This document shows, one piece after another, positions 1 through 63,246 of a stretch of 64,000 nucleotides of DNA. The stretch's first letter is position 1. Each line of letters starts with the position of its first letter. Under the pieces are notes generated by a model, which was not told the DNA's origin, did not search any database, and saw only the letters and a program-made list of their open reading frames with translations. The translations under genes were made by a program, and so were the position numbers. The stretch is from Phycicoccus sp. Root101 (lineage in GTDB: Bacteria; Actinomycetota; Actinomycetes; Actinomycetales; Dermatophilaceae), in NCBI RefSeq assembly GCF_001426245.1, contig NZ_LMCM01000008.1, positions 310,001 to 374,000 of the forward strand, given 5' to 3'.

Positions 1-3000
1 TCGCCGAGAAGCGGGCCGCCATCGACGCCGTGCTGGGGCGTCTGGACAACGTGGGCCTGTCCGACCTCGTGCTCGACGCCTACGACGGCGCCAGCAACAA
101 GCGACGGCTGGCGCAGGAGTTCGGCAAGGCGCTCGAACGCGGCACCAGCACCACCGAGCCCGACACCGCCGAGATCGAACGCGACCTCGTCGACCGCCGC
201 GCCATCCTCGTCGAGCACTCCAGGGCCCTGCACGAGGTGCGTCAGCCCTGGGGCGTCTCGGCCCACCAGGCGCAGGAGGCCATCGCCACCCTGGGCGCTG
301 CCCGGCACTCGCCGACCTCGCGCGTCCGGGTCCGCGGCCAGCAGCTCGCCGATCTCGACCGCCGCCGGGTCCAGGAGCTCGGCCGCCAGCTCACCGAGGC
401 GGCATCGCTGGGCGCCTGGTCGACCGAGGACGGGTCCGACCCGTGGTTCGGCGCCCGCATCCCGACCTCCGAGGAGGCGGTCCGCGCCCGCGAGATCACC
501 AGCCGCCTCGCCGAGGGTCAGCTCCAGGACGTCGAGCAGACCATGACCGAGGTGTTCGCCGAGGTCAGCCTGCCGCGCGCCGAACGCGTCGGCGACTGGG
601 GCGTCGTCCTCGACTCGGTGTCGAAGGTCCGCGACACCCTCGAGGTGTTCCGGCCCGAGGTGTTCGACATCCCCCTGGGCGATCTCGTGGCGGCGACCGG
701 CTCGAAGTCCTACCGCGCCGAGCACGACGTCGAGCTCGGCGCGTGGTCCCGGTGGCGCCTGAGGCGTCAGGCCCGTTCGTTGCTGCGCCCCGGCCCGCCG
801 CCCACCGACCTGCACGCGGCCCTGGTCGACGCGCAGCAGCAGCGCACGTCGTGGCAGGCCATGGCCGGCGCCGGTGGCCGCCCCGAGATCCCGCTCGAGC
901 TCGACCGGGCGCAGGCGGCATACGACTCCCTCGCGCAGGACCTGCGCTGGCTCGGCGAGCGGCTCGCCCCCACCGCCGCCGGCGGTGACCTCATGGGTAC
1001 CCCGCTGACCGAGCTGCAGCAGCGGATGGCCGACCTGGCCTCCCGCCCCGAGCGGCTCACCGTCGTCCCGCGCGTCCTCGGCGCCCTCGACGCCCTGCGC
1101 GCCGCGGGCATGGGGCCCTTGGTCGACGACCTCGCCCGCCGCGGCGTCGAGCCCGACGACGTGTCGGCCGAGCTGGACTTCGTGTGGTGGACCTCGCTGT
1201 CCGAGGACCTCATCGTGCGCGACTCGCGGTACGGGGCCCACGACGGGGCCCAGCTCCTGCGGGTGGCGGCGGAGTACGTCACCGCCGACCACGCCCACCT
1301 GGCCGCGAGCGCCGACCGCGTCCGCGCCGGAGCCGCCCGCAAGCTGCGCGAGGTCCTCGCCGACCACCCCGAGCAGGAGGCGCTGGTGAGGGCAGAGGCT
1401 GGTAAGTCGCGGCGCCACCGGCCGCTGCGCGAGCTGCTGCCCAAGGCAGGGGAGACCTTGACCGCGGCCAAGCCCGCGTGGGCGATGAGCCCGCTGGTCG
1501 TCGCCTCGATCCTGCCGCCGGGACGCTGGTTCGACGTGGTCATCTTCGACGAGGCCTCGCAGATCCCACCCGCGCAGGCGGTCTCTGCGATCTCCCGCGC
1601 CCACCAGGTCGTCGTCGCCGGTGACGAGCGCCAGCTCCCGCCGACGAACTTCTTCACCTCAGCGGTCGACGAGGACCTCGCGCCGGACTCGGAGACGCTG
1701 ACCGAGGGGTTCGAGTCGGTGCTCGACGTGCTGACCGCCGCCCTGCCGACGCGTCGCCTGTCGTGGCACTACCGCTCGCTCGACGAGCGCCTCGTCGCGT
1801 TCGCCAACCGTGAGATGTACGACGGCTCGCTCGTGACCTTCCCCGGCACGGGCACCGACGCCGTGGTGCGCCTCGAGTCGGTCGAGGGTTCCGGCGTCGT
1901 CGCGCCCGGCGAGGAGGCCATCGAGTCGACGGAGGCCGAGGTCGACCGGGTCGTGGCCCTGGTCCTCGAGCACGCCCGCACCCGACCGCAGGAGTCGCTC
2001 GGCGTCATCGCGCTCGGCATCAAGCACGCCACCCGCCTCGACGACGCGCTGCGCAAGGCCCTGCTCGAGGCCGACGGTGTCGGCGACTTCTTCGACGAGG
2101 ACCGTCGCGAACGCTTCTTCGTCAAGAACCTCGAGCGCGTCCAGGGTGACGAGCGTGACGCCATCATCCTGTCCGTGGGGTACGGCAAGACCCCGCACGG
2201 TCGGGTGCTGCACCGGTTCGGACCGCTGAACCTCGAGGGCGGCGAGCGCCGCCTCAACGTCGCCATCACCCGTGCCCGGCGCCGCATGACCGTCGTCTCG
2301 TCGCTGCTCGCGTCGGACCTCGACCCGACCCGTCTCAAGGCGCGTGGCGCGGTCATGCTCCGCGACTTCCTCTCGTATGCCGCCGACGGAACCCTCCCGG
2401 GTCCGGCCGCCTCGTCCGCCGCGTCCACGGTCGCCGCCCCGGTGGCTGTGACGGAGGCCGCAGGGACGGACGCGTCGTCGACGGACGAGGTCGTCGAGCC
2501 GGTCCCGGACCTCACGGCTGCGGCTGCCGCGGCTCCGCTGGGCGGGCTGGTGCGGGCGGAGTTCGCCCGTCGTCTGCGCGAGTCGGGGCTGGTGGTGCAC
2601 GAGGCGTTCGGTGGCGCCGGTCACCCGGTCGACCTCGCGGTCGAGGACCCCGACCGCCCCGGCCTGGTGCTGGTCGCGGTGGAGACCGACGGCCCGGCCT
2701 ACGCCGCCATGCACAGCAGCCGCGACCGCGACCGCCTGCGCGGCGAGCAGCTCGGCCGCTTGGGTTGGGAGCACGTCCGCGTGTGGACGACGGACCTCTT
2801 CCGTGACCCGGCCCGAGACGTGTCACGCGTCCACGCGGCGGTCCAGCGGGCAGCCTCCCGCCGGACGGCAGCCGAGCGTGCGGCCAAGGCCGCCGCACCC
2901 GTGGTCGCTGTCGCGAACCCTGTCGTGATCCCGGCCGCCGAGCCGGTCGAGCCCGAGGCGGCGACGGGCGCAGCGACCCCCGTCGACACGGCCCTCGCCG

Positions 3001-3404
3001 ACTCTGCTCCCGTCGACCCGGCTCCGGTCGAGGCGGAGGCACCCGCGGAGTCCGAGGAGGTCGTCGGCGACGCGGTGGCGGAGGCCTCGACCGGCGATGC
3101 CCAGCTGACGTTCGAGGGCCTCGGGTCGTCGGACGACTTCGCGCCCAAGCCCGACACCGGCGCCCGCAAGCGCCGGGTCCGTGGCCGCCGCGCCACGGCG
3201 AAGCCCACGAACACCCAGTCGGGGGAGCAGCTCCCCGAGCCCGAGCCGGCCGAGGGCGCCGAGTCCACCAAGGCCGAGGCCCAGCCGAAGGCGCCGGACC
3301 AGACCAAGGACGACACCGACGCCGGCTGGGGCGAGCAGCCGAACCTCTCGGCGCACGACCGCTGGCTGTTCGAGCAGCGACCCCCGCACTGGGGTCGCGA
3401 CTGA
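1..3404 (+). CDS. SF1 (DNA2/NAM7-type) helicase with C-terminal nuclease-like domain, 5' partial
   Basis: The reading frame is already open at nt 3 (AEKRAAIDAVLGRL, the motif Ia region), so the start and Walker A lie upstream and 1133 residues are visible. Motif II is DEAS (about nt 1548-1559), motif III is GDERQLPP (about 1621-1644), then WHYRS, VQGDERD and NVAITRARRR, the ordered SF1 motifs IV-VI. About nt 2540-2850 looks like a PD-(D/E)XK/Vsr-like fold (PVDLAVEDPD...VAVETDG), as in the MTES_1575-type endonuclease domain attached to such helicases. An Ala/Pro/Glu-rich linker and a conserved-looking RPPHW end follow. Likely role is ATP-driven nucleic-acid unwinding in repair or defence; the substrate cannot be read from sequence. 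Family confident, biological role not. Confidence 0.85.
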   Translation, partial: AEKRAAIDAVLGRLDNVGLSDLVLDAYDGASNKRRLAQEFGKALERGTSTTEPDTAEIERDLVDRRAILVEHSRALHEVRQPWGVSAHQAQEAIATLGAARHSPTSRVRVRGQQLADLDRRRVQELGRQLTEAASLGAWSTEDGSDPWFGARIPTSEEAVRAREITSRLAEGQLQDVEQTMTEVFAEVSLPRAERVGDWGVVLDSVSKVRDTLEVFRPEVFDIPLGDLVAATGSKSYRAEHDVELGAWSRWRLRRQARSLLRPGPPPTDLHAALVDAQQQRTSWQAMAGAGGRPEIPLELDRAQAAYDSLAQDLRWLGERLAPTAAGGDLMGTPLTELQQRMADLASRPERLTVVPRVLGALDALRAAGMGPLVDDLARRGVEPDDVSAELDFVWWTSLSEDLIVRDSRYGAHDGAQLLRVAAEYVTADHAHLAASADRVRAGAARKLREVLADHPEQEALVRAEAGKSRRHRPLRELLPKAGETLTAAKPAWAMSPLVVASILPPGRWFDVVIFDEASQIPPAQAVSAISRAHQVVVAGDERQLPPTNFFTSAVDEDLAPDSETLTEGFESVLDVLTAALPTRRLSWHYRSLDERLVAFANREMYDGSLVTFPGTGTDAVVRLESVEGSGVVAPGEEAIESTEAEVDRVVALVLEHARTRPQESLGVIALGIKHATRLDDALRKALLEADGVGDFFDEDRRERFFVKNLERVQGDERDAIILSVGYGKTPHGRVLHRFGPLNLEGGERRLNVAITRARRRMTVVSSLLASDLDPTRLKARGAVMLRDFLSYAADGTLPGPAASSAASTVAAPVAVTEAAGTDASSTDEVVEPVPDLTAAAAAAPLGGLVRAEFARRLRESGLVVHEAFGGAGHPVDLAVEDPDRPGLVLVAVETDGPAYAAMHSSRDRDRLRGEQLGRLGWEHVRVWTTDLFRDPARDVSRVHAAVQRAASRRTAAERAAKAAAPVVAVANPVVIPAAEPVEPEAATGAATPVDTALADSAPVDPAPVEAEAPAESEEVVGDAVAEASTGDAQLTFEGLGSSDDFAPKPDTGARKRRVRGRRATAKPTNTQSGEQLPEPEPAEGAESTKAEAQPKAPDQTKDDTDAGWGEQPNLSAHDRWLFEQRPPHWGRD

Positions 3405-3438
3405 CCCACGCCCGCCACGGGCGGGCGACACCAGACGG

Positions 3439-3519
3439 TCACACGCAAAACGCTGGTTGCGGGGCAACCCTCGGGGAAACAACCCGCGGTATGCCGTGCA
3501 ACCAGCGTTTTGCGTGTGA
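3439..3519. repeat. Perfect 22-bp inverted repeat between convergent genes
   Basis: Bases 3439-3460 and 3498-3519 are exact reverse complements, separated by 37 bases (3461-3497) that include one copy of GTATGCCG. It lies between the helicase stop and the convergent mscL stop. The stem is longer than most intrinsic terminators and carries a short T-run (GCGTTTTGCG) in the right arm. It could be a bidirectional terminator or a dispersed palindromic element. Confidence 0.8.
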
Positions 3520-3555
3520 AGGGGGCGCGTCGGGCGCGCGCCTGGCCCGGTGGGC

Positions 3556-3921
3556 TCAGACGGCGCGGTTGAGCGAGTCGCGGATCTCGCGGAGCAGGAT
3601 GACGCTCTCGTCCGGGGCGTCGTCGACCTCCGGCGCCTGGGCGAACCGGGCCTTCGCTGCCTCGTACGGCTTGACGACGAAGAAGTAGACGACGAATGCC
3701 ATGAGCAGGAAGGCGAACAGAGCAGTCAGGAACGGTCCGACCGAGACCAAGCCGCCGGGCTTGAAGTCATCGAAGTTCTTGGCGCCGCCCACCTTGCCCA
3801 CGAGCTCGATGATGATCTTGGTGAACGAGGTGACCACGGCCGCGAATGCCGCGCCGATGATGAACGCGACGGCAAGCTCGACGAGGTTGCCCCGCATGAC
3901 GAAGTCTTTGAAACCCTTCAT
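3556..3921 (-). CDS. mscL: Large-conductance mechanosensitive channel MscL
   Basis: A 121-residue protein beginning MKGFKDFVMRGN, the family's amphipathic N-terminal helix. The first membrane helix is about residues 14-40 (LVELAVAFIIGAAFAA), the second about 68-90 ending in VVKPYEAAK, and a cytoplasmic C-terminal helix carries LLREIRDSL. MscL forms a homopentameric pore that opens under membrane tension to release solutes on osmotic downshock. ATG at 3921 is chosen over upstream starts because it gives the canonical N terminus and has an AGGGAAAGGG-type ribosome site upstream. Convergent with the helicase gene; the 22-bp inverted repeat lies between them. Confidence 0.95.
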   Translation of the reverse strand: MKGFKDFVMRGNLVELAVAFIIGAAFAAVVTSFTKIIIELVGKVGGAKNFDDFKPGGLVSVGPFLTALFAFLLMAFVVYFFVVKPYEAAKARFAQAPEVDDAPDESVILLREIRDSLNRAV

Positions 3922-6181: not shown

Positions 6182-7852
6182 CTACTTCTTCCCGCCGAGG
6201 CGCTCGCCCAGGCGCCTGACCAGGGCCCGACCGCTGTCTCCCGGCGACAGGGCCTGCCCCGCCGGGACCACGGCGGTCCCGTCGCCCCGGCCGCGCAGCT
6301 GGCGTCCACCGCTGGTGGCCCACCCGGCGAGGCGGCCGTTCTGGCTGACCTCCCGGACCCTCTTCTCGGCCCTGGTGCGGGACTCGGCGGTCGCGACGAT
6401 GAGCAGCTGGTCGCCTCGCCGGACCACGGTGTTGACCTCGGGGACGAACCCCTTGTCACCGCGCACGACCAGCGTGACGTTGGCGCCCTCGGGCAGGCGC
6501 AGCTCGAAGATCTCGACGCCGTGCAGCTTGGACGCGGGGCCCACGGTGACCTGCAGCATCTCCGCCCCCAGCTCCTCCAGGGGCGTCGCCTCGACAGCGA
6601 GGTCGAGCGTGGCGTAGTCCTCCACGATGCCGAGGCGTTGGGCCACCCACGGCAGGGTCGGCGCCTGGACGATGGTGAAGACGACCACGAGGACGAACAC
6701 CAGCTCGAAGATCCACTCGACGTTCTTGGCCCCCACCGTGAGGGGGACGGTCGCGAGCACGACGGGGACGGCGCCCCGCAGCCCGGCCCAGGAGAGGAAC
6801 ACCTGGTCCCGCCACCCGATCCGGAACCAGGAGGCCGAGGCGATCACGGACAGGGGGCGGGCGACCAGCAGGAGGACGAGGCCGATGACGATGGCCGGCA
6901 GGACCTGCGAGCCCATCTTGCTGGGGGAGGCGAGCAGGCCGAGGAGCACGAACAGGCCGATCTGCGCGAGCCAACCCAGCGCCGTGGAGAGGCCGAGCAC
7001 CGCCGGGCCGTGCGGCAGCCGCAGGTTGCCCAGCACGAGGGCGGCCAGGTAGCAGGCGATGAAGCCGCTCGCGTGCACGGTGGCCGCGGCGGCATACGCG
7101 AGGACGGTGAGGGCGACCACCCCGATGCTGAACAGGCCGGACGAACCCGACGCGGCCCGGCGCATGAACTGTCCACCGACCCGCCCGACGGCGAGCCCGA
7201 TCGCGGCACCGACCCCGAGCTCGACCACCGCCTTGAACAGCAGCGTGAACCAGCCCTCGGCGTCGGCCGGGTCGGCGCTGCGGGCGGCGAGCGCCGTGAC
7301 GAGGATGACGACCGGGGCGTCGTTGAAGCCGGACTCGGCCTCGAGCATCCCTGTGATCCGGCGCGGGAGCGGCACCCGGCGCAGCACGGAGAACACGGCC
7401 GCGGCGTCCGTCGAGGACAGGATGGCGCCGACGAGCAGGGCGGTGTTCCAGTCCAGGTGCAGCACGAACCGCGCGGCGACCGCCACGACGGCGACCGAGA
7501 CCACCACGCCCAGGGTCGAGAGCACGGCCGCGGGGCCTACGGACCTGCGGATGCCCTCCCACCGCGTGCTCAACCCGCCCTCGGACAGGATGAGGATGAG
7601 GGCCGCGTAGCCGAGCACCTGCGTGAGCTCGTTGGAGTCGAACTGGATCCGTCCGAAGCCGGCCTCGCCGATGGCCAGACCGATGCCGAGGTAGATGAGC
7701 AGCGACGGCAGGCCGGACCTCACGGACAGCCGGACGGCGGCCACGGAGACCAGCAGGACGAGCGATCCGACGAGCAGTGCGGGCGTCAGGTCGTGCAGCG
7801 TGAAGGCCGACGAACCCGCTTCGAGGGCAAGGGCGGGGAGTCCTGCGTGCAC
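6182..7852 (-). CDS. CPA1-type K+(Na+)/H+ antiporter with TrkA-C-like domain
   Basis: 556 residues from GTG 7852. Residues about 15-400 form about a dozen hydrophobic helices with the CPA1 signature ESGFNDAPVVILV and a conserved STDAAAVFSVLRR segment. Residues about 410-490 (VGPASKLHGVEIFELRLPEGANVTLVVRG...RRGDQLLIVAT) match the TrkA-C/RCK_C ligand-binding domain of NhaP2/CvrA potassium/proton antiporters. Predicted role is cation extrusion in exchange for protons under cytosolic nucleotide control. A Gly/Arg-rich basic tail ends the protein. Divergent from the acylase gene across a gap of under 50 bases. K+ versus Na+ cannot be decided from sequence. Confidence 0.85.
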   Translation of the reverse strand: MHAGLPALALEAGSSAFTLHDLTPALLVGSLVLLVSVAAVRLSVRSGLPSLLIYLGIGLAIGEAGFGRIQFDSNELTQVLGYAALILILSEGGLSTRWEGIRRSVGPAAVLSTLGVVVSVAVVAVAARFVLHLDWNTALLVGAILSSTDAAAVFSVLRRVPLPRRITGMLEAESGFNDAPVVILVTALAARSADPADAEGWFTLLFKAVVELGVGAAIGLAVGRVGGQFMRRAASGSSGLFSIGVVALTVLAYAAAATVHASGFIACYLAALVLGNLRLPHGPAVLGLSTALGWLAQIGLFVLLGLLASPSKMGSQVLPAIVIGLVLLLVARPLSVIASASWFRIGWRDQVFLSWAGLRGAVPVVLATVPLTVGAKNVEWIFELVFVLVVVFTIVQAPTLPWVAQRLGIVEDYATLDLAVEATPLEELGAEMLQVTVGPASKLHGVEIFELRLPEGANVTLVVRGDKGFVPEVNTVVRRGDQLLIVATAESRTRAEKRVREVSQNGRLAGWATSGGRQLRGRGDGTAVVPAGQALSPGDSGRALVRRLGERLGGKK

Positions 7853-7899: not shown

Positions 7900-10587
7900 G
7901 TGTCCCGCGCCATTCTTGCCCGCCGCATTGCCATCGCCGTGGCGGCCCTCCTGGTCGTCGTCCTCGGAATAGTCGCGGTTCTCGCGGTCACGTGGGTGAG
8001 GCGTCCGTTCCCCGTCACCGAGGGGGAGATGAAGGTCCCCGGTCTGCAGGGCAAGGTCGACGTGGTCCGCAACGACAAGGGCATCCCGCAGATCTACGCC
8101 GACAGCTCCGACGACCTGTTCCGCGCGCAGGGGTTCGTGCAGGCCCAGGACCGGTTCTTCGAGATGGACCTGCGCCGGCACATCACCTCCGGGCGGCTCT
8201 CCGAGCTGGTCGGTGAGGGCGGCCTCGAGACCGACCGGGTGATCCGGACGCTGGGCTGGCGGCGCGTCGCCGAGGCCGAGCTGCCGACGCTCAAGCCCGA
8301 GACCCGCCGCTACCTGCAGGCGTACTCCGACGGGGTCAACGCCTACATCCACCAGCAGGGCACCCCCTCGAAGATGTCGCTCGAGTACGTCGTCCTGGGC
8401 CAGAAGGTCCCCGACTACCGGGTCGAGGACTGGACCCCGGCGGACTCGCTCGCCTGGCTCAAGGCGATGGCCTGGGACCTGCGCGGCGACTACAGCGACG
8501 AGCTGATGCGGGCTCGCCTCGCGGGGACGATGTCCCTGGCCCAGATCAACGAGCTCTACCCGCCGTACCCCTACGACACCAACAAGCCGATCCTCTCCGC
8601 CCAGGACTGGACGCCGACGACGTCGAACGCCACCAACGGTTCGGCCAACTCCGCCCTGCCCTTCGCCGCCCCCGCCACCACGGGCAAGGCGGCCAAGGCG
8701 GTCAAGGCGGTCAAGGACGCGAAGGCGACCGACCCCGAGCTCACCGCCGAGCGCAGCCCCGCCGCGGAGCAGGCGTATGCCGCGGTGTCCAGGGCCCTGC
8801 GCGCCGTCCCGGTCACCGTCGGGCGGGGCGACGGGATCGGCTCCAACTCGTGGGTGGTCGGCGGGTCGCGCACCAGCACCGGCAAGCCGCTGCTCGCCAA
8901 CGACCCGCACCTCGGCGTCAGCATCCCCGGCATCTGGTACCAGGTCGGCCTGCACTGCCGCTCGGTCAGCAGCAGCTGCCCGTTCGACGTGGCCGGCTAC
9001 TCGTTCGCCGGCCTGCCCGGCGTCGTCATCGGGCACAACCAGTCGATCGGCTGGGGCTTCACCAACCTCGGGCCCGACGTCAGCGACTTCTTCCTCGAGC
9101 AGGTGCGCGGCAACACCTACCTGCGCGACGGCAAGCAGGAGCCGCTGACCATGCGCACCGAGACGATCAAGATCGGTGGCGGCGGGGAGCAGACCATCAC
9201 GGTCCGCAGCACCGCGCACGGCCCGCTGCTGTCCGACGCGCTCGACAAGGTCGCCGAGGCCGGGGACAGCCCCCTGGTCAACTCCCGCACGAGCCCCGGC
9301 GACTACGAGGTCGCGCTGCAGTGGACCGGCATCGAGGTCAACCAGACCGCCGATGCGATCTTCGGCCTCAACACCGCCCAGAACTTCCAGGAGTTCCGCG
9401 CGGCAGCCAAGGACTTCGCCGTCCCGGCGCAGAACCTCCTGTACGCCGACACGGCCGGCAACATCGGCTACCAGGCTCCCGGCTCCATACCGATCCGCAG
9501 CCGGTACATGGAGAGCGCCCCCGGCTTCTGGATCCGCCCGGGGTGGGTCTCCTCGTGGGACTGGAAGGGCAAGGTCCCGTTCGACGAGATGCCCTGGTCC
9601 TACAACCCGCCTGAGGGGTTCATCGTGGCGGCCAACCAGGCGGTCACCGAGAGCGGCTCGCCGTTCCTCACCACCGAGTGGGACTACGGCTTCCGCAGCC
9701 AGCGCATCCGCAGCCTGCTGGAGAAGAACACCAAGGTCACCCCGGCCACGATGTCGCAGATCCAGGGTGACGTGCGCAGCCAGTTCGCCCCGACGCTGGT
9801 CAAGGCGCTGCTCAAGGTGGACCTGAGCGGTGACGACTTCACCAAGCAGGCCCAGGACCTCTTGCGCAAGTGGGACTACACGATGCCGGTGGGCGCGAGC
9901 GACGCCGGCGCGGCCGCGGCCTACTACAACGCGGTCTGGTCGAGCCTGCTCGACCTGACGTTCGACGACGAGCTGCCCAAGGACCTGCGGGCCGACGGCG
10001 GCGACCAGTGGATGCAGGCGATGACCCAGCTGCTGACCAAGCCGCGCTCGGCCTGGTGGGACGACAAGCGGACCGCCGGGGTGGCCGAGGGCCAGTCCGA
10101 GATCCTGCGCAAGGCCCTCGTCGACGCCCGCCTCGACCTGACGCGTGAGCTCGGCAAGGACCCGTCCGACTGGCAGTGGGGGGAGCTGCACACCCTGACG
10201 CTGCAGCACCAGGTGCTCGGCGGCGACGACGTCCCCGGCGTGGTGCGGGCCCTGTTCAACCGCGGCCCGATCGAGCTGCCCGGTGGCTCCGCGATCGTCA
10301 ACGCCAACGGCTGGGACGCCAGCCAGGGCCTCGACGACGCCAGCCGCTCCAAGGCGTTCAAGGTCGACTGGGCCCCCTCGATGCGCATGGTGCTCGACTT
10401 CTCGGACCTCGACCGGTCACGCTGGGTCAACCAGACCGGCAACAGCGGCCACGCGTTCTCCGACCACTACAACGACCAGTCCGAGGCGTGGGCCAAGAAC
10501 GAGCTCTACGACTGGCCGTTCAGCCGCAAGGCAGTCGACGCCGCGGGCGGCGACGAGCTCGTGCTCGTGCCCGGCACGACGAGCTAG
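7900..10587 (+). CDS. Penicillin acylase family Ntn-hydrolase, membrane-anchored
   Basis: 895 residues. An N-terminal hydrophobic helix (about residues 7-28, IAIAVAALLVVVLGIVAVLAV) serves as signal/anchor, so the enzyme acts outside the membrane. The alpha-chain region has DSSDDLFRAQGFVQAQDRFFEMDLRRH. The autoproteolysis site is GIGSNSWVVGG, with Ser315 expected as N-terminal nucleophile of the beta chain after spacer removal (an Ala/Lys-rich linker lies around residues 245-300). LLANDPHLG and PGIWYQ follow, standard for the family. Relatives cleave penicillins, acyl-homoserine lactones or cyclic lipopeptides; substrate not predictable. Its stop overlaps the stop of the convergent cyclo-ligase gene (CTAG). 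Confidence 0.85.
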   Translation: MSRAILARRIAIAVAALLVVVLGIVAVLAVTWVRRPFPVTEGEMKVPGLQGKVDVVRNDKGIPQIYADSSDDLFRAQGFVQAQDRFFEMDLRRHITSGRLSELVGEGGLETDRVIRTLGWRRVAEAELPTLKPETRRYLQAYSDGVNAYIHQQGTPSKMSLEYVVLGQKVPDYRVEDWTPADSLAWLKAMAWDLRGDYSDELMRARLAGTMSLAQINELYPPYPYDTNKPILSAQDWTPTTSNATNGSANSALPFAAPATTGKAAKAVKAVKDAKATDPELTAERSPAAEQAYAAVSRALRAVPVTVGRGDGIGSNSWVVGGSRTSTGKPLLANDPHLGVSIPGIWYQVGLHCRSVSSSCPFDVAGYSFAGLPGVVIGHNQSIGWGFTNLGPDVSDFFLEQVRGNTYLRDGKQEPLTMRTETIKIGGGGEQTITVRSTAHGPLLSDALDKVAEAGDSPLVNSRTSPGDYEVALQWTGIEVNQTADAIFGLNTAQNFQEFRAAAKDFAVPAQNLLYADTAGNIGYQAPGSIPIRSRYMESAPGFWIRPGWVSSWDWKGKVPFDEMPWSYNPPEGFIVAANQAVTESGSPFLTTEWDYGFRSQRIRSLLEKNTKVTPATMSQIQGDVRSQFAPTLVKALLKVDLSGDDFTKQAQDLLRKWDYTMPVGASDAGAAAAYYNAVWSSLLDLTFDDELPKDLRADGGDQWMQAMTQLLTKPRSAWWDDKRTAGVAEGQSEILRKALVDARLDLTRELGKDPSDWQWGELHTLTLQHQVLGGDDVPGVVRALFNRGPIELPGGSAIVNANGWDASQGLDDASRSKAFKVDWAPSMRMVLDFSDLDRSRWVNQTGNSGHAFSDHYNDQSEAWAKNELYDWPFSRKAVDAAGGDELVLVPGTTS

Positions 10588-11246
10588 CGGGAGCCGGCCG
10601 GGCCGGGGAACGCGTCCCCTGACGGCGCCGGGAGTCGTCGGAGCCCTCCCTCCGCGGTGACCACTGCGTCGACGGCCCGGTCGTGCGACTCTCGGGGCAG
10701 GTCGTCCTCGAGCAGCTCCCACGGGTGGACCACGGCGACGAGGGTGGCCGCGGTGCGCGGGAGCGCCCGGTCGTAGCAGCCCTTGCCCTGGCCGATCCGG
10801 GTGCCGTCGACGTCGACGCCGTGCGCCGGGACGAAGACCACCTTCGCCCGGCCGACCGCATCGAGTCCCAGCGCCGTCCCGCTGCCCGCCTCGCGCCAGT
10901 CGAGGTCCCAGTCCGCGAGGGTGAGGGGCAGCAGCACGCGGACCCCCCTGGCCACGAAGGCCGCGACCAGCGCCTCGGTGGGGGGTTCGGTCGGCATCGA
11001 CTCGTAGGCGGCGACCCAGTCACCGCGTCCCACTCCGGCCTCACGGGCCGCCCTGAGGGCGGCCAGGGCGATGGCCTCGCCGTCGGCGGCCCGGTCGCGG
11101 CCCGGCACCTGCTCGCGCCTCAGCCGGCGCAGCCGCCCTCGGACCGCCGCCTTGTCCTCGGGAGCGGGCCCGGCGGCATACCCGCTGGTGGGCTGGGGGT
11201 CCGGCTCGGGGGGACGGTCGGGACTGGGGGTGGGCACAGGCTCCAT
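10584..11246 (-). CDS. 5-formyltetrahydrofolate cyclo-ligase
   Basis: 220 residues. Family features are DKAAVRGRLRRLRREQVPG near the start, VAAYESMPTEPPTEALVAAFVARG, and the nucleotide/folate signature GTRIGQGKGCYDRAL (about residues 148-162). The enzyme converts 5-formyl-THF to 5,10-methenyl-THF using ATP, returning folate to one-carbon metabolism. The N-terminal 30 residues are Pro-rich and non-conserved, so the true start may be downstream of ATG 11246. The gene diverges from galU, a neighbourhood often seen in actinobacteria, and converges on the acylase gene with the two TAG stops sharing CTAG. Confidence 0.85.
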   Translation of the reverse strand: MEPVPTPSPDRPPEPDPQPTSGYAAGPAPEDKAAVRGRLRRLRREQVPGRDRAADGEAIALAALRAAREAGVGRGDWVAAYESMPTEPPTEALVAAFVARGVRVLLPLTLADWDLDWREAGSGTALGLDAVGRAKVVFVPAHGVDVDGTRIGQGKGCYDRALPRTAATLVAVVHPWELLEDDLPRESHDRAVDAVVTAEGGLRRLPAPSGDAFPGPAGSR

Positions 11247-12222: not shown

Positions 12223-13439
12223 TCTCCGTCGAGCAGCACCTCACCCGGATCCTCGAGACCGTCAAGGTCATCAGGCCGTTCGAGCAGGGCGTGCTCGATG
12301 CGCAGGGCTGCGTCCTCGCCGAGGACGTGACTGCGCGCGGGTCGCTGCCCGGCTTCACCAACTCCGCGATGGACGGGTATGCCGTGCACGCCGCGGACGT
12401 GGCGTCCGCCTCCGAGGAGCACCCGGTCGTGCTGCCCGTGGTCAACGACATCGCGGCCGGCAACACCAACGCGCTCTCCCTGGCCCAGGGCCAGACGATG
12501 CGGATCATGACCGGCGCACCGATGCCCCGGGGGGCCGACGCCGTCGTGGCCGTCGAGAACACCGACGGCGGGGTGGTCCGCGTCAGCATCCGGGCCGCGT
12601 CCGTGGTCGGCCAACACGTGCGGGAGGTCGGCGAGGACGTCGAGGAGGGGACCGTCGTGCTCCGGCGCGGCACCCTGCTCGGCCCCGGGCAGATCGCCCT
12701 GCTCGCCGCCGCAGGGGTCGCCCGGGTGCGGGTCGTCCCGCGACCCCGCGTCGTCGTCATCTCCACCGGTGACGAGCTCGTCGAGGTGGGGGAGAAGCCG
12801 GCCTTCGGCCAGATCGTCGACTCCAACTCGGTCATGCTCACCGCTGCCGTCACCTCCGTCGGTGCCACGCCCTACCGCGTCGGCGGGGTTGCCGACGACG
12901 CCCGCACCCTGATGGCCACCCTCGAGGGCCAGCTCGTCCGCGCCGACGCCATCATCACCACCGGCGGGGTCTCGATGGGGGCCTTCGACACGGTCAAAGA
13001 GGTGCTCTCGCGCGTCGGCACGGTGCAGTTCGACAAGGTCGCCATGCGTCCGGGCATGCCGCAGGGCTTCGGGGTGCTGGGGGACGAGCAGGTCCCGGTC
13101 TTCACCCTGCCGGGCAACCCGGTCAGCGCGCTCGTGTCGTTCCACGTGTTCGTGGCCCCCGCGCTGCGCGCCATGGCCGGTCGCCCCGAGCCGTCCTTCC
13201 CCCCGGGGTACGTGCCCGCGGTGGCGGCAGAGTCGTTCAGCTCGATCCCCGGGAAGATGGAGTTCATGCGGGTCGTCCTGGACGACGACCGGGCCCGGCT
13301 CGCCGGTGGTCAGGGGTCGCACATGCTCGGCGCCCTCGCGGCCGCCGATGCGCTCGCGGTCATCCCGCCCGACGTCACCCAGGTCGACGAGGGTGACGCC
13401 CTCGAGTGCCTTCCCCTGCTCGGTCGGGAGGGCCAGTGA
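12219..13439 (+). CDS. moeA: MoeA/gephyrin-like molybdotransferase (Glp)
   Basis: 406 residues with full MoeA architecture: MDGYAVHA near the start, the molybdopterin-binding TGDELVEVGEKPAFGQIVDSN block, TTGGVSMGAFD, and the C-terminal domain (GVLGDEQVPVFTLPGNPVSALVSF). MoeA inserts molybdate into adenylylated molybdopterin. In Corynebacterium the homologue Glp, encoded in the same kind of neighbourhood, binds FtsZ and the membrane receptor GlpR/SepX; the sepX homologue lies four genes downstream here, so a divisome role is a reasonable inference alongside or instead of cofactor synthesis. Overlaps galU and moaC by four bases (GTGA) at each end. Confidence 0.85.
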   Translation: MISVEQHLTRILETVKVIRPFEQGVLDAQGCVLAEDVTARGSLPGFTNSAMDGYAVHAADVASASEEHPVVLPVVNDIAAGNTNALSLAQGQTMRIMTGAPMPRGADAVVAVENTDGGVVRVSIRAASVVGQHVREVGEDVEEGTVVLRRGTLLGPGQIALLAAAGVARVRVVPRPRVVVISTGDELVEVGEKPAFGQIVDSNSVMLTAAVTSVGATPYRVGGVADDARTLMATLEGQLVRADAIITTGGVSMGAFDTVKEVLSRVGTVQFDKVAMRPGMPQGFGVLGDEQVPVFTLPGNPVSALVSFHVFVAPALRAMAGRPEPSFPPGYVPAVAAESFSSIPGKMEFMRVVLDDDRARLAGGQGSHMLGALAAADALAVIPPDVTQVDEGDALECLPLLGREGQ

Positions 13440-14467: not shown

Positions 14468-15142
14468 GTGGCGCGCCTGATGGCTCCGTGGCCGGTCCAG
14501 CTCGCTGGCCGCACGACGGCTGGTCAGGAGCTGCTGCTCGACCCGCTGCGCCGGCGTGACCGCAAGGACTGGGTGCGCGTGCGCTCGGTCAACCGCGAGT
14601 GGCTCGGCCCGTGGGAGGCCACCGCCCCCGAGGACGACCCCCGCCCGGTGTCCTTCAGCGGCCTGGTGCGGCACTACAACCGCGAGGGTCGGGCCGGGCG
14701 GATGATGCCGTTCACGATCCGCACCGAGGGGCAGGTCGTGGGCCAGCTGGTGCTGTTCGGCATCTCGTGGGGCTCGTTGCTGTCGACCTCGGCGGGCTAC
14801 TGGATCGACCGGCGGGTGGCAGGTCGGGGCATCGTGCCGATGGCCCTGGCCCTCGCCGGCGACCACGCGCTCGGCCCGATGGGCCTGCACCGCATCGAGG
14901 TCAACATCCGCCCCGAGAACACCAACAGCCTTGCCGTCGTGCGCAAGCTGGGCTTTCGCGACGAGGGCCGGCGGGCGGCATACCTGCACATCGACGGTCA
15001 GTGGCGCGACCACCGAACGTTCGCGCTGACGCGCGAGGACCTCGGTGGGGCGACGCTCGTGGAGCGATTGCACACCAATCACACCAGTCACATTGGCGAC
15101 ACACCGCCCCACGTCCCCGAGGGTCCCGCGCACGGCACCTAA
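14468..15142 (+). CDS. RimJ/RimL-type GNAT N-acetyltransferase
   Basis: 224 residues from GTG 14468. GNAT features are GYWIDRRVAGRGIVPMALALAGDHALGPMGLHRIEVNIRPENTNSLAVVRKLGFRDEGRRAAYLHIDGQWRDH, matching the acetyl-CoA loop and C-terminal strands of ribosomal-protein acetyltransferases. About 35 residues after the core are not conserved. The gene follows mogA/moaB-like by 7 bases and precedes sepX by 10; this GNAT is a regular member of the galU-moeA-sepX neighbourhood. Substrate unknown. Confidence 0.8.
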   Translation: MARLMAPWPVQLAGRTTAGQELLLDPLRRRDRKDWVRVRSVNREWLGPWEATAPEDDPRPVSFSGLVRHYNREGRAGRMMPFTIRTEGQVVGQLVLFGISWGSLLSTSAGYWIDRRVAGRGIVPMALALAGDHALGPMGLHRIEVNIRPENTNSLAVVRKLGFRDEGRRAAYLHIDGQWRDHRTFALTREDLGGATLVERLHTNHTSHIGDTPPHVPEGPAHGT

Positions 15143-18347: not shown

Positions 18348-18420
18348 ACGCGGGCGGGCAGCTCGCCAGGCGCACGGGCGACGCGCACGGACGGTCGTCC
18401 GCGGCATACCGGGGTGCCGT

Positions 18421-40055: not shown

Positions 40056-40061
40056 CCTCCT

Positions 40062-40112
40062 CGGTTCGAGGTGTTCAGGTACCGGATCCCGGTCCTCGAA
40101 CACCTCGAACCG
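40062..40112. terminator. Long inverted repeat, bidirectional terminator
   Basis: The 15-base arms CGGTTCGAGGTGTTC (40062-40076) and its exact complement (40098-40112) enclose a second small stem (ACCGG/CCGGT), between the convergent GH31 gene and the 86-residue reading frame. Confidence 0.7.
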
Positions 40113-40136
40113 GCCGGGGAGGCGCTCAACCGGCGG

Positions 40137-40397: not shown

Positions 40398-40414
40398 GGG
40401 CCAAGCCTGCCGTG

Positions 40415-41971: not shown

Positions 41972-41978
41972 GCGCGAC

Positions 41979-41984
41979 ATCGTA
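41979..41984 (-). promoter_or_regulatory. Leaderless-type -10 (TACGAT) of the O-mannosyltransferase gene
   Basis: Minus strand TACGAT, seven bases, then ATG 41971. Confidence 0.5.
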
Positions 41985-42000
41985 TGCACACCGGGCCTGA

Positions 42001-42006
42001 CAGGAT
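42001..42006 (+). promoter_or_regulatory. Candidate -10 (CAGGAT) of rsmI
   Basis: CAGGAT, seven bases, GTG 42014. The first base departs from TANNNT, so weaker than the others; the same CAGGAT form precedes the CPBP gene. Confidence 0.4.
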
Positions 42007-42013
42007 GACACCC

Positions 42014-50090: not shown

Positions 50091-50957
50091 ATGGCGGAGC
50101 AGACCAGCGGATTCCTCGGGGCCGCCCAGATCCGCGAGATCGCCGCCGGGCTCGGGATGCGTCCCACCAAGCAGTGGGGCCAGAACTTCGTCGTCGATGC
50201 CAACACGGTCAAGCGCATCGTGCGGCTGGCCGGTGTGGGTCAGGACGACGTCGTGGTCGAGGTCGGACCCGGTCTGGGCTCGCTCACCCTGGCCCTCCTG
50301 CCCGAGGTGGGTCACGTCACGGCCGTCGAGGTGGACCCGACCCTCGCGGAGGCGCTGCCGGGCACGGTGAGCCGGCTCGCGCCGGCATACGCCGACCGGC
50401 TCACGCTCGTCCACGCGGACGCGATGCAGGTCCGCGAGCTGCCCGACCCGCAGCCCACCGCCCTCGTCGCGAACCTGCCGTACAACGTCTCCGTGCCCGT
50501 GGTGCTCAACTTCCTCGAGACGTTCCCGACGCTCGAGCGGGTGCTCGTCATGGTCCAGCTCGAGGTCGCCGAACGCCTCGCCGCGTCGCCGGGGTCCAAG
50601 GCCTACGGCGTGCCGAGCGTCAAAGCCGCCTGGTATGCCGCGGTGCGGCTCGCAGGGACGGTGCCACGCAGCGTGTTCTGGCCGGTGCCGAACGTCGAGT
50701 CGGGCCTGGTGCTGCTGGAACGGCGACCGGCGCCGACGACCGCCGCCAGCCGCCGCGACACCTTCACCTGCATCGACGCGGCGTTCGCCCAGCGGCGCAA
50801 GACGTTGCGCGCCGCGCTGAGCGGGTGGGCGGGTTCGGCCCCCCGTGCCGAGGAGTGCCTGCGCGCCGCCGGGGTCGACCCCCGCACGCGGGGGGAGCAG
50901 CTGGGCATCGCGGAGTTCGCCGCGATCGCCGCGGCCCGCGCCGCGCTCGGCGACTGA
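50091..50957 (+). CDS. rsmA: 16S rRNA (A1518/A1519-N6)-dimethyltransferase
   Basis: 288 residues. SAM-binding [17 protein letters not shown], acidic loop [15 protein letters not shown], catalytic [16 protein letters not shown] and the C-terminal rRNA-binding part ([14 protein letters not shown]). Also known as KsgA; dimethylates two adenines in helix 45 as a late 30S maturation check. N terminus has the typical [23 protein letters not shown]. Confidence 0.95.
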
Positions 50958-50976: not shown

Positions 50977-53490
50977 TCAGGGCGTCGTCGGGCAGACGAC
51001 GGCCGAGCCGGCCCCCGACGCGGTGCGCTCGGCGAGCTGGTCCGCGCCCCGCTCGCGGGCGAGGTTGAAGTCGAGCCAGTCGCCGCGGACCGGCACCTGG
51101 AGGCCGCGCACCGCGCAGGCGAACTCGGCGTCCGGCAGCCGGACGATCGCGGGGAGGGCGTCCGCGGACAGCGACCGCAGGTAGGCGTAGTCGACGGGAG
51201 TGGTGGCCTGCGTGCGGGAGAGGTTGTGCTCGGCGATGTAGAGGTCCGGGTTGACCAGGGCCAGGCCCAGCAGCCCGAGCGCTCCGGTCCGGACGGCGAC
51301 CGGGACGAGCCACCGGCGCCCGCCCACGACCCCGGCGACGAGCACCATCACCAGCACGAGGCCGAGCCAGCCCTCGAAGACCGAGACGAGCAGCCGGAGC
51401 CGGGTGAAGCCGTACGCCTCCTCGTAGAGGCTCATCCGGTGCAGGGCGGAGACGACCACGACGATGGTCATCAGGCACAGGGCGCCGAGCGCCACGTCAC
51501 GGCGCCGCGACGGCTCGGCCTTGTGGCTGGCCCAGGCGACGACGGTGAGGGTGAGCACGGTCGCCACGGTCAGCTGGCCGAACCCCTCGTGGACGTAGTC
51601 GGCATACGTCAGCCCGGTCGTCCGCTGGAGGTAGTCGTGGCCACCGAAGAGCGCGGTCGCCTGGGCCACGAGGAAGGCGGCGAAGACGGCGTTGACGGCC
51701 GCGATCGGGGCCAGCCACTCGAAGGGGCGGCGGCTGGGACGCAGCCGCGGCTGGAGGCGGTCGACGGCTGGTGGGGCGAGGCCCACGTAGGCCGCCGCGA
51801 GGGTGCCGCCCGCGACGAAGAGGGCCAGGGCCGTGCGGGCGGGCAGGTCGTTCCAGGTGATGTCCGGGGTGATCGCGTCGACCCAGGTCGCGAAGAGGGC
51901 ATCCGCTGAGGCGAACAGCGACCCGAACACGAGGAGCAGGACGGCGGACAGGAGCCCTGCGCGCACGGCCGGGAGCCAGCTCTGCGTGCCGCCGCGGGGA
52001 CGCAGCGTGCGCCCCAGCCAGGGGAGACCGCGCAGGCCGGCCAGGGGGACGGCCACGGCGGACCCGACGGTGCCGAGGACGGAGCTCGCACGGGTCGAGC
52101 CCACGGCGACGAGGGCCAGCGCAGCCAGCAGGCAGAGCACCGTGATCCACGCGGCGTCGCGCAGCACCAGGGTGACGAGCAGCAGGACGACGACGGCGAC
52201 GTCGGCGGTGTCCGTCCAGGACCAGGTGCCCCTGCCGGCCCGGCGGGTGCGCGTCGCGAGCACCGTGGCGCAGATGGCCGCGAGCACGAGTGCTGCGCCG
52301 AGCCCGATGCGGTGGTCGGGCAGCACCAGGGCGGCGAGGATGCCGGACGCGGCAGCTGCCCCCACGAGGCCCGGCCGGCGCCGGTCCGCGTCGGGCCAGA
52401 ACGCGGTGAGGGTGTCACGGGCGGGCGCGGGAAGGGGTGGCTGCGAGGGTGCCGGCGGGGTCAGGGTGCTCATGACGGGCTCCTTGGTCGTGGTCGGACG
52501 GGTGGGGTCGACGGGTAGCAGCACCTCGATGCGGCAGCCGTGCTCACTGTCGGCGACGGCGATGGTGCCGCCGTGCAGCTGGACGACCCAGCGCGAGATG
52601 GCCAGGCCCAGCCCGGTGCCGCTGTTGTGGGCTGCGCTCGTGGTGAACCGCTCGAACACGAGGCCGCGTTCGGCCGGCGCGATGCCCGGTCCGTCGTCGG
52701 CGACGTCGAGGCGGACCCGGTCGCCCTCGGCGACGGCCGCCACCCTGATCTCGCCGTCGCGCGGGCTGTGGCGGGCAGCGTTGTCGAGGAGGTTGGCGAG
52801 CAGCTGGTGCAGGCGGTCCGCGTCCGCCGACAGCCGCAGTCCGGGAGGTGAGACCACCACGGAGTAGCGCAGGCCGTCGGTCCGGGCCTGCGCGACGGCT
52901 TCCTCGAGGAGCTCGGCGACGTCCACCTTCGCGACCTGGAGGGGTGTCACGCCCTCCTCCACGCGGGACAGGTCGAGGAGGTCGCCGACCAGGCGACCCA
53001 GTCGCTCGGTCTGGGCCAGGGCTGACCGCAGCTCCTCGGGGCCGGGTTCGGAGACGCCGTCGACGAGGTTCTCCAGGACGGCCTGGAGCGCGGAGATCGG
53101 GGTCCGCAGCTCGTGCGAGACGTTGGCGACGAGGTCGCGACGGTGCCGGTCCACCAGCTCGAGGGTCGCCGACATCCGGTTGAACGCCCGCGCCAGCTCG
53201 CCCACCTCGTCGCCGGAGGTGGCGCGCACGCGCTGGGAGTAGTCCCCCTGCGCCATGCGCTGCGCCGCCACCGTCATCTCCCGCAGCGGCGAGGTCATGC
53301 CGCGGGCCAGCAGCTGGGTGACCACGAGGGCGGCCACGACCGCGACCGGCACCGTCGCCCACGGCGAGACGCCGAGGCGCGTGCCCACCACGGCGAGGAC
53401 CGACGCCACGGTGATCGTCACGGCGACCAGCAGGCCGAGCTTGGTCTTGATGGAACGGGCCCGGTCGAGGGGACGCAGGTCGTAGTTCAC
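50977..53490 (-). CDS. Sensor histidine kinase fused to DUF4153/DUF4173-like polytopic protein
   Basis: 837 residues in one uninterrupted frame. Residues 1-339 are a complete kinase: two membrane helices, HAMP, LVANVSHELRTPISALQAVLENLV, NLLDNAARHSP, DDGPGIAPAERGLVFERF and SGTGLGLAISRWVVQLHGG. From residue 340 (MSTLTPPAP) it becomes an 11-12-helix membrane protein with EGFGQLTVATVLTL and LYEEAYGFTRLRLLV, as in DUF4153/DUF4173 proteins. The internal ATG 52473 has AAGGAG six bases before it, so a free second protein could also be made. GTG 53490 overlaps the response-regulator stop (GTGA). Confidence 0.82.
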   Translation of the reverse strand: MNYDLRPLDRARSIKTKLGLLVAVTITVASVLAVVGTRLGVSPWATVPVAVVAALVVTQLLARGMTSPLREMTVAAQRMAQGDYSQRVRATSGDEVGELARAFNRMSATLELVDRHRRDLVANVSHELRTPISALQAVLENLVDGVSEPGPEELRSALAQTERLGRLVGDLLDLSRVEEGVTPLQVAKVDVAELLEEAVAQARTDGLRYSVVVSPPGLRLSADADRLHQLLANLLDNAARHSPRDGEIRVAAVAEGDRVRLDVADDGPGIAPAERGLVFERFTTSAAHNSGTGLGLAISRWVVQLHGGTIAVADSEHGCRIEVLLPVDPTRPTTTKEPVMSTLTPPAPSQPPLPAPARDTLTAFWPDADRRRPGLVGAAAASGILAALVLPDHRIGLGAALVLAAICATVLATRTRRAGRGTWSWTDTADVAVVVLLLVTLVLRDAAWITVLCLLAALALVAVGSTRASSVLGTVGSAVAVPLAGLRGLPWLGRTLRPRGGTQSWLPAVRAGLLSAVLLLVFGSLFASADALFATWVDAITPDITWNDLPARTALALFVAGGTLAAAYVGLAPPAVDRLQPRLRPSRRPFEWLAPIAAVNAVFAAFLVAQATALFGGHDYLQRTTGLTYADYVHEGFGQLTVATVLTLTVVAWASHKAEPSRRRDVALGALCLMTIVVVVSALHRMSLYEEAYGFTRLRLLVSVFEGWLGLVLVMVLVAGVVGGRRWLVPVAVRTGALGLLGLALVNPDLYIAEHNLSRTQATTPVDYAYLRSLSADALPAIVRLPDAEFACAVRGLQVPVRGDWLDFNLARERGADQLAERTASGAGSAVVCPTTP

Positions 53491-55258: not shown

Positions 55259-55259
<1 letters not shown>
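54324..55259 (+). CDS. ispE: 4-(cytidine 5'-diphospho)-2-C-methyl-D-erythritol kinase
   Basis: 311 residues, GHMP kinase: VRVPAKVNLELLVGAPREDGYHPLATVYHAVSLYD, the ATP loop PVMGGMAGGSADAAAALVA, ELGSDVPFLLSGG and GVVSGSGPTVAFV. Phosphorylates CDP-ME in the MEP isoprenoid pathway. Stop overlaps the ABC-F start by one base (TGATG). Confidence 0.95.
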
Positions 55260-57079
<1,820 letters not shown>

Positions 57080-57671: not shown

Positions 57672-58478
57672 ATGAGCACCCACTGGGACCCGACGCAGTA
57701 CGCCAAGTTCTCCGACCACCGGTCGCGCCCCTTCGGGGACCTCATGGCCCGGGTCGGTGCGAGCTCGCCCGGTCTGGTCGTCGACCTCGGTTGCGGCAAC
57801 GGCCCGCTGACGTTGGGGCTCGCCCGCCGGTGGCCCGACGCGCGCGTCGTGGGCGTGGACCACTCGCCGGAGATGTTGGACGCGGCTCGAGAGCTCGACG
57901 CCGAGGGGCGCGTCGAGTGGGTGGAGGCCGATGTCGCGTCGTGGGACGTGGGCTCGCTCGGGGCGGCCCCGGACGTCATCGTCACCAACGCGACGCTGCA
58001 GTGGGTGCCCGGTCACCTCGCGCTCGTCCGCGCCTGGGTGCAGGCGCTCGCTCCCGGCGGCTGGTTCGCGATGCAGGTGCCCGGCAACAACGACGCTCCC
58101 TCTCACGCGCTCATGCGTGAGACGGCGGCGGACCACCCCGCGGCCGACCGGCTCGCTCCTGCGCTCGACCGGCTGGCCGTCCACGACCCGGCCCGGTACG
58201 TCGTGGAGCTCGGCGCCCTCGGCTGCGAGGTCGACGGGTGGGAGACGACCTACCAGCACGTCCTCGACCCGGGCGGTGCGCAGGACAACCCGGTGCTCGA
58301 GTGGGTGCGAGGGACCGGGCTGCGGCCGGTCCTCGAGGCGCTCGACGACGAGACGGAACGAGCGGCGTTCCTGGCGGACTACGACGCGCGGCTCCGCGCG
58401 GCATACCCCCGCACGCCGGTGGGGGTGATCCTGGCGTTCCGGCGGGTGTTCGCCGTGGCCCACCGCACCGGTGCCTGA
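57672..58478 (+). CDS. tam: Trans-aconitate 2-methyltransferase
   Basis: 268 residues. Begins STHWDPTQYAKFSDHRSRPFGDLMARV, the Tam signature; SAM motif I VVDLGCGNGPLTLGLARRWP, ARVVGVDHSPEMLDAAR, VTNATLQWVPGHLALVRAWVQALAPGGWFAMQVPGNNDAPSHALMRE. Detoxifies trans-aconitate, an aconitase inhibitor, by methyl esterification in the cytoplasm. Divergent from the MarR gene, likely its repressor. Confidence 0.9.
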   Translation: MSTHWDPTQYAKFSDHRSRPFGDLMARVGASSPGLVVDLGCGNGPLTLGLARRWPDARVVGVDHSPEMLDAARELDAEGRVEWVEADVASWDVGSLGAAPDVIVTNATLQWVPGHLALVRAWVQALAPGGWFAMQVPGNNDAPSHALMRETAADHPAADRLAPALDRLAVHDPARYVVELGALGCEVDGWETTYQHVLDPGGAQDNPVLEWVRGTGLRPVLEALDDETERAAFLADYDARLRAAYPRTPVGVILAFRRVFAVAHRTGA

Positions 58479-60455: not shown

Positions 60456-60473
60456 GCCGGCGAGTATGCCGCG

Positions 60474-62481: not shown

Positions 62482-63246
62482 ATGCGCACTACCTCGAAGA
62501 TTGCTTCTGTCGCCCTCGGCTCTGCAGTGCTCCTGCCGTTCCTCGGTGCAGGTGTCGCCCAGGCTGCCGACGGCAGCACGATGGCGACCCTCCGTCCCGT
62601 CGCGTTGAACGGTGTCAAGGGCAGCGGCACCGCGATGGTGACCGTGAACGGCACCCGCATCGACGTGACCATGGCCGCCAACGGCCTGCTCCCCGACGCG
62701 CCGCACGCGGCCCACATCCACTTCGGTGCGGACGCTCGGCACGAGTGCCCGGTCGCCGGTGACGACGCCAAGGGCGACGGCACCATCAACACCACCGACG
62801 GTGGCCCGGCATACGGTCCGATCGTGGTCTCCCTGACCAAGACCGGTGACACCTCGCCGAAGAGCGGCCTCGCGGTCGACCGCTTCGACACCGCCCCCGG
62901 CGGCAAGATCAACTACGAGCGCGGCAGCATCAACGTCTCCTCCGGCGTGGCCCAGGCCATCACCGAGGGCAAGGCTGTCGTCGTCGTCCACGGCGTTGAC
63001 CACAACAACGACGGCAAGTACGACGGCACGACCAAGAGCGACCTCGACCCGAGCCTGCCCACCGAGGCCACTGACCCGGCCATCTGTGGCGTCCTGAACG
63101 CCGCTCCCGCCGGCGGCATGGACACCGGCGCGGGTGGCACGTCCACCCCGAACAACGAGGGCATGCTCCTCCTCGGTGGCGGCCTGCTCATGGCGGCTGT
63201 CGGCACCGGTGCCTTCACTGCTCGCAAGGCTCGTAACCGCGTCTGA
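62482..63246 (+). CDS. CHRD-domain secreted protein with C-terminal membrane anchor
   Basis: 254 residues. Sec signal peptide (VALGSAVLLPFLGAGVAQA|AD), then a CHRD-like domain (TMATLRPVALNGVKGSGTAMVTVNGTRIDVTMAANGLLPDAPHAAHIHFGADARHECPV, with the metal-like HAAHIHFG) and KAVVVVHGVDHNNDGKYDG. A flexible linker ends in a hydrophobic helix and basic tail (GMLLLGGGLLMAAVGTGAFTARKARNRV). No LPxTG precedes it. AAGGAG ribosome site. The downstream sortase starts on its stop (TGATG). Confidence 0.8.
   Translation: MRTTSKIASVALGSAVLLPFLGAGVAQAADGSTMATLRPVALNGVKGSGTAMVTVNGTRIDVTMAANGLLPDAPHAAHIHFGADARHECPVAGDDAKGDGTINTTDGGPAYGPIVVSLTKTGDTSPKSGLAVDRFDTAPGGKINYERGSINVSSGVAQAITEGKAVVVVHGVDHNNDGKYDGTTKSDLDPSLPTEATDPAICGVLNAAPAGGMDTGAGGTSTPNNEGMLLLGGGLLMAAVGTGAFTARKARNRV

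Follow-up and report, generated by a model that had tools for sequence, protein, structure and literature searches.

A family-restricted octamer with dialects in Actinomycetota as a candidate self-recognition word for DNA exchange

What could cause a single non-palindromic octamer to be written again and again, on both strands, inside and between genes? This question is raised by a 64-kb stretch of Phycicoccus sp. Root101 (contig NZ_LMCM01000008.1, positions 310,001 to 374,000; hereafter the window), throughout which the word CGGCATAC recurs. We propose that CGGCATAC serves as a self-recognition word when DNA is exchanged, with a DNA uptake sequence (DUS) as its likeliest form, and we give this reading a probability of about two in three.

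The window holds 25 exact copies of CGGCATAC (12 plus, 13 minus), compared with a mean of 0.63 and a maximum of 3 in 100 dinucleotide shuffles of the same DNA; the excess reported in the initial annotation was therefore right and understated. Our recount agrees that 25 of the 26 GGCATAC cores belong to the full octamer (the remaining one is AGGCATAC), and each of the 24 octamers one mismatch away from CGGCATAC occurs 0 to 9 times. According to our own gene calls, which are simple and crude, 21 copies lie in genes and 4 are intergenic, including the three (3489, 18402 and 60464) that had been placed in non-coding DNA. The individual copies are given below; the plus-strand positions reported initially were those of the 7-mer core, one base past the octamer start.

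916–923, plus strand, CGGCATAC word in a gene
2375–2382, minus strand, word in a gene
3489–3496, minus strand, word, intergenic
7090–7097, plus strand, word in a Na/H exchanger gene
8775–8782, minus strand, word in a penicillin amidase-family gene
11174–11181, plus strand, word in a gene
12377–12384, minus strand, word in a moeA-like gene
14976–14983, plus strand, word, intergenic in the gene calls, within an alternative open reading frame
15344–15351, minus strand, word in a gene
17744–17751, minus strand, word in a gene with a zf-HC2 zinc-finger domain
18402–18409, plus strand, word, intergenic
20212–20219, minus strand, word in a gene
24550–24557, plus strand, word in a gene
27734–27741, plus strand, word in a gene
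31067–31074, minus strand, word in a gene
42288–42295, minus strand, word in a gene
46790–46797, minus strand, word in a class I (Met-type) tRNA synthetase gene
50383–50390, plus strand, word in an rRNA adenine dimethylase gene
50633–50640, minus strand, word in the rRNA adenine dimethylase gene
51600–51607, plus strand, word in an open reading frame (weak gene call)
55902–55909, plus strand, word in gene 55259–57079
56365–56372, minus strand, word in gene 55259–57079
58399–58406, plus strand, word in a gene
60464–60471, minus strand, word, intergenic
62807–62814, plus strand, word in a gene

Gene 55259–57079 presumably encodes an ABC-F type ATPase, a name given from its sequence without a family search.

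The excess extends to the whole source genome (4.38 Mb), where the count that had been suggested as a check yielded 1468 copies of CGGCATAC (741 plus, 727 minus) against 82 (46 plus, 36 minus) of a control word, namely CGGCATAC reversed and not complemented. The influence of coding was assessed by shuffling synonymous codons within genes, which keeps both the protein and the codon usage fixed. One hundred rounds in the window gave 1.9 copies (maximum 5) against the 21 found in genes, an 11-fold excess, while in a 400-kb stretch of G005 19.2 copies were expected (maximum 33) and 263 observed (G000 denotes the source genome, other G numbers the genomes of relatives, and L numbers loci or stretches). 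Synonymous-codon and dinucleotide shuffles thus both fall far below the observed counts and led us to reject a codon or composition artefact.

The statement that copies occupy varied reading frames fared less well in the window than in G005. In the former, the two frames translated as Ala-Tyr and Tyr-Ala take up 20 of the 21 in-gene copies (9 and 11) and a single one falls elsewhere, so the window alone does not prove the use of all frames. In the latter all six frames are enriched: the frame forcing the codon ATA has 22 copies (1.5 expected), the four frames other than Ala-Tyr and Tyr-Ala have 62 (6.1 expected), and the in-gene copies divide into 124 sense and 139 antisense. Between genes the word reaches full density (115 copies, 104 expected if uniform). 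Because of these 62 and 115 copies, the excess persists outside Ala-Tyr and Tyr-Ala pairs, and the confinement to such pairs that was to have refuted it did not hold.

Within a sample of the order, CGGCATAC is restricted to one family. All 11 genomes of the source genus are enriched (625 to 3986 copies), and 110 of the 186 genomes of the source family reach 300 copies or more, with counts no lower than 2.4 times the control and a maximum of 4724. The order sample comprised 297 genomes, its label Micrococcales being inferred through the relative Serinicoccus chungangensis; none of the 272 genomes that belong to 18 other families exceeds 177 copies (the control there being 135), and ratios to small controls reach about 4 in these families. 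Word-poor genomes also occur inside rich genera, such as G018 (37 copies), G124 (50) and G094 (19), whose congeners carry hundreds to thousands. Of the family genomes, 76 stay below 300 copies: 15 of them have another spelling (two weakly), and roughly 60 have no identified word, the other spellings having been scanned for in genomes at least 90 percent complete. Named relatives sought with one protein were mostly distant taxa. Among eight loci examined, three of them from that scan, only that of S. chungangensis (placed by NCBI in Ornithinimicrobiaceae) was dense in CGGCATAC: this locus, L002, has 15 words in 21.8 kb, and its longest aligned piece matches the window at 78.6 percent.

CGGCATCC and CGnCGTAC emerged when octamers containing two or more A/T were scored for over-representation in stretches 80 to 140 kb long. 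The top over-represented octamer in the CGGCATAC-poor genomes G044 and G178 was CGGCATCC (94 and 88 copies, 7.5 expected in each), and G094 yielded CGCCGTAC and CGTCGTAC (97 and 84 copies in 140 kb, about 11 and 8 predicted from other genomes). In codon shuffles of 60 rounds, in-gene copies of CGGCATCC stood at 69 versus 13.6 in G044 and 57 versus 12.3 in G178, and those of CGYCGTAC at 112 versus 40.5 in G094. CGGCATCC remained inside the shuffle range in five genomes of another word or none (G000, G005, G067, G103 and G184), with a mild excess in G160 (23 versus 12.4, shuffle maximum 19); CGYCGTAC remained inside it in all five tested (G005, G067, G103, G160 and G184).

A scan of the 163 family genomes with a completeness of 90 percent or more showed CGGCATCC to be high in G027, G028, G044 and G178 (3816 to 4480 copies) and intermediate in G153, G158 and G175 (1210 to 1336), with 241 to 1040 copies in 154 others. 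The remaining two, G046 and G047, hold two words, CGGCATCC (2195 and 2099) and CGGCATAC (1217 and 1189). Remnants of CGGCATAC are seen in the CGGCATCC genomes G044 (361), G027 (235) and G028 (272). CGYCGTAC is most frequent in G094 (5372), high in G012, G013, G022, G023, G025, G098, G099 and G100 (2380 to 3780) and weaker in G006, G009, G014, G024 and G043 (1078 to 1338); the other 149 genomes have 91 to 943. Dialect calls beyond the three whole-genome scans are based on 13 to 140 kb per genome, and in 20-kb stretches, ranked without codon control, the top word is CGTCATAC for G039 and G043 and CCGCATAC for G035. We therefore consider CGGCATCC and CGnCGTAC to be well-supported dialects of CGGCATAC in its relatives, and CGTCATAC and CCGCATAC probably to be further ones. 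The spellings differ from each other by one or two bases. Placed on a tree of 54 ComEC rows, the word labels need 18 changes, versus 28.8 when shuffled (0 of 200 shuffles as low); the sisters G094 and G096 carry different words, and 15 rows are wordless, the no-word label alone taking 11 changes.

Some further signals were seen alongside these dialects. The mild CGGCATCC excess of G153 and G158 (1210 and 1336 copies) concerns a genus, g46, that is otherwise wordless, and perhaps reflects a decayed or young dialect. In the wordless G067 and G103 (L115–L118, L156–L159 and L204–L207) CCCCTTCG and CCCCCTTC are strongly over-represented, the former with 59 and 101 copies in 120 kb of each genome (about 7 expected from other genomes); they could be terminator stems or another dialect. 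G184 (L160–L163) has 16 copies of ACCTACTC in 80 kb, where about 0.4 are expected from other genomes.

Sites of the word are conserved and can be respelled in place, as judged from pairwise, non-independent counts in BLAST-alignable DNA. Within the genus (nine genomes, G005 and G008 left out) the word is identical at 469 of 815 aligned CGGCATAC sites, and for octamers matched in composition the figure is 29217 of 103272; between three genus genomes and ten of other CGGCATAC genera, the corresponding figures are 22 of 57 and 1332 of 7885. In no-word genomes the word is kept at 3 of 426 sites and its counterparts are diverse, a diversity on which we reject a one-step mutational origin. Where CGGCATAC sites align to CGnCGTAC genomes, CGnCGTAC itself stands at 103 of 248; it does so at 39 of 426 sites in genomes without a word and at 80 of 1505 in those with CGGCATAC. 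In both main frames, replacing A by G at position 5 leaves the protein unchanged, while the change to CGGCATCC is non-synonymous; in-place respelling to CGGCATCC is weak (10 of 225), as expected if protein coding resists the change.

Close copies tend to be paired in inverted order. Across 27 stretches, adjacent words separated by under 60 bp comprise 41 inverted and 6 direct cases, with 57 in total expected at random, and in the 400 kb of G005 there are 15 inverted and no direct ones. In the order GTATGCCG-CGGCATAC G005 has ten pairs, eight of them intergenic; five of these eight lie 5 to 61 bases past a gene end and one has an unclear position. The eight intergenic pairs fold at z -3.0 to -9.9. 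From folds and position, the inverted pairs are predicted to form terminator-like hairpins. The two largest word-free gaps of this single stretch, 10.9 kb each, contain a tyrosine integrase and a large serine recombinase, and the third-largest an rRNA operon.

Strand use is even locally, with 184 versus 199 copies in the G005 stretch, as in the window, and 97 versus 109 relative to the comEC strand (orthologous region, summed over 10 genomes). The totals over the 110 word-rich genomes (101,874 versus 101,543) have no bearing on polarity, since the two replichores cancel. Chi and KOPS (FtsK-orienting polar sequences) are likewise asymmetric octamers, read by DNA motors, but they are oriented with replication; the even local strand use of CGGCATAC in the window, the comEC region and G005 led us to reject a role of this kind.

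An exact, asymmetric and strand-balanced word that occurs thousands of times and is respelled in place needs a drive that acts on the word itself, and preferential uptake with recombination is the sole mechanism known to us that leaves all these traces. We infer such uptake, the existence of a receptor and a drive by recombination. The transformation machinery, perhaps a Flp/Tad pilus acting with ComEA and ComEC, would use a surface or pilus protein to bind double-stranded DNA carrying CGGCATAC; this DNA would be preferentially taken up and recombined into the genome, and copies would then build up on both strands wherever protein coding permits. A shift of receptor specificity in a lineage would slowly respell its genome and so give rise to dialects. 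For the accumulation of DUS, both selection and molecular drive have been set out (in the part of PMC2397512 available to us). Of the readings offered in the initial annotation, which also included a genome-wide protein site and a methylation motif, an uptake or transfer sequence is favoured by the dialects, in-place respelling, inverted pairs, strand balance and integrase gaps.

Genes for such machinery are widespread in the family: ComEC was found in 180 of 186 genomes, DprA in 163 of 163, a T2SSE-type ATPase in 163 of 163 (162 above the cut-off) and ComEA, by a simple pattern, in 17 of 19 regions scanned, while PilM was found in 6 of 163. The Flp operon of the source genome encodes a Flp pilin, CpaB/RcpC, a CpaE-like ATPase, a T2SSE ATPase and two T2SSF proteins, and a ComF-like gene lies just beyond a two-component pair (the CpaB, CpaE and ComF matches fall below the NCBIfam cut-offs). 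One T2SSF protein of the Flp operon (L242:7163–9148) has an N-terminal von Willebrand factor A (VWA) domain and is a possible adhesive or DNA-contacting pilus part. Another actinobacterium, Micrococcus luteus, has comEA and comEC, and its transformation requires Flp pili, according to the accessible portion of PMC6370729. As correlates of word presence these genes were rejected, ComEC, the T2SSE ATPase and DprA being near-universal and PilM nearly absent.

Several observations weigh against the uptake reading. About 60 of the 186 family genomes have no identified word, and ComEC, DprA and T2SSE ATPases occur in wordless genomes too, so that the machinery fails to predict the word. Many sites are not common to different genera; between the window and Serinicoccus the same word was found at 0 of 5 alignable window sites, and at 0 of 4 in the reverse direction. 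The five opposite-order pairs of G005 lie in coding DNA and two of its eight intergenic pairs between divergent genes, so not all pairs are terminator-like. Spacing in the 400 kb of G005 is slightly clumped, and regular spacing was not found there. Finally, the window has a word-free gap of 11 kb (31067–42288); our recount agrees that it is the only one above 10 kb, and it holds a GH31 gene as well as a MASE1 histidine kinase.

The main rival is a donor-side pump, in which an FtsK/TraB-type translocase of actinobacterial conjugation reads the word and word-bearing chromosomal DNA is exported and recombined. TraB-type proteins recognise 8-bp repeats in Streptomyces, and spread driven by transfer would leave similar traces, dialects and in-place respelling included. 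Nevertheless, we regard it as unlikely, as local strand use is even and copies are mostly solitary (26 neighbours less than 100 bp apart in G005, 35 at random). The word might instead be bound by a protein that organises the chromosome or serves in repair or recombination and acts on either strand; the genome-wide spread over genic and intergenic DNA of both strands agrees with this. The chances of this account are likewise small: local strand balance speaks against a Chi- or KOPS-like role, to respell a genome, selection would have to act site by site at thousands of places without any drive, and the near-wordless G124 and G018 stand beside rich congeners.

Less probable still is that a resident DNA methyltransferase or epigenetic system acts on CGGCATAC, a role that has been proposed for HIP1 of cyanobacteria (GCGATCGC). 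The resemblance lies in an exact, clade-wide over-represented octamer, that of HIP1 having an unsettled function; sequences internal to HIP1 are orphan methyltransferase targets (PMC4390886, as far as its available text goes). HIP1, however, is a palindrome linked to methyltransferases, whereas CGGCATAC is non-palindromic and the two methylase families tested are dispensable: among 37 word-bearing genomes of all dialects, PF01555 was found in 14, PF07669 in 24 and neither in 9. This disfavours the methylation motif of the initial annotation. A match to an N6/N4-type DNA methylase lies about 17 kb upstream of the window (G000:C8:291911–292885). Generation of the word by mutational bias or codon usage, to which the preference for Ala-Tyr and Tyr-Ala frames in the window had pointed, is barely credible and largely refuted by the G005 shuffle, the excess in all six frames, the full intergenic density and the diversity of the octamers aligned in no-word genomes, short of a codon-pair-keeping shuffle restoring the count.

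Returning to DNA uptake as the preferred explanation, CGGCATAC resembles the DUS of Neisseriaceae (GCCGTCTGAA and its dialects) in many respects. As described in the accessible text of PMC3630211, these are (i) short asymmetric words of about a thousand to six thousand copies, (ii) with dialects one or a few bases apart, of which two may share a genome, while some members are wordless, and (iii) with inverted pairs that abound in every dialect genome and are linked to terminators. DUS are also absent from recently acquired genes (PMC2397512, same portion as above), with which the two integrase-bearing gaps of the G005 stretch would fit. The differences are that CGGCATAC belongs to Actinomycetota and not Proteobacteria, has 8 and not 10–12 bases, and would be read by a Flp/Tad pilus instead of a type IV pilus with ComP, in keeping with the scarcity of PilM. 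The uptake signal sequence of Pasteurellaceae (AAGTGCGGT and a dialect) is similarly a non-palindromic exact word with two dialects, whose receptor is a prediction only (PMC12616744, in the part accessible), but it differs in letters, phylum and envelope and is a 9-mer with an AT-rich extension.

The same 2025 paper, within its accessible part, names Neisseriaceae and Pasteurellaceae as the sole families with an uptake-sequence system. No actinobacterial uptake word was found in the open-access literature, among the matches listed and judged by title and the start of the abstract, subscription papers being mostly outside this search. Our best reading is thus that CGGCATAC is the first self-recognition word for uptake or transfer, with dialects, in Actinomycetota. 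It is also reasonably likely that this is a third, independently evolved uptake watermark that a Flp/Tad-type competence pilus reads, and the first to occur outside Proteobacteria and in a lineage with a single membrane. Three well-supported and two probable dialects would then split one family into exchange groups, and a change of receptor would lead lineages to respell sites by the thousand, partly in place. If so, DNA watermarks have arisen repeatedly in evolution and a Flp/Tad pilus can serve them, and adding the octamer to DNA might render these environmental bacteria transformable. Sister species with different spellings would represent a natural experiment on the co-evolution of receptor and word, and would allow a test of whether dialects limit gene flow.

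Two minor observations may be added. The palindrome AAGTACTT is present at 2 to 4 sites per 40 kb in the comEC regions of G000, G004, G006, G010 and G067, giving 4 to 8 hits when each strand is counted, where almost none are expected. In the window itself, positions 30–3404 hold a gene with AAA_11/AAA_12 helicase and MTES_1575 nuclease domains, whose product is a possible nucleic-acid defence or repair protein.

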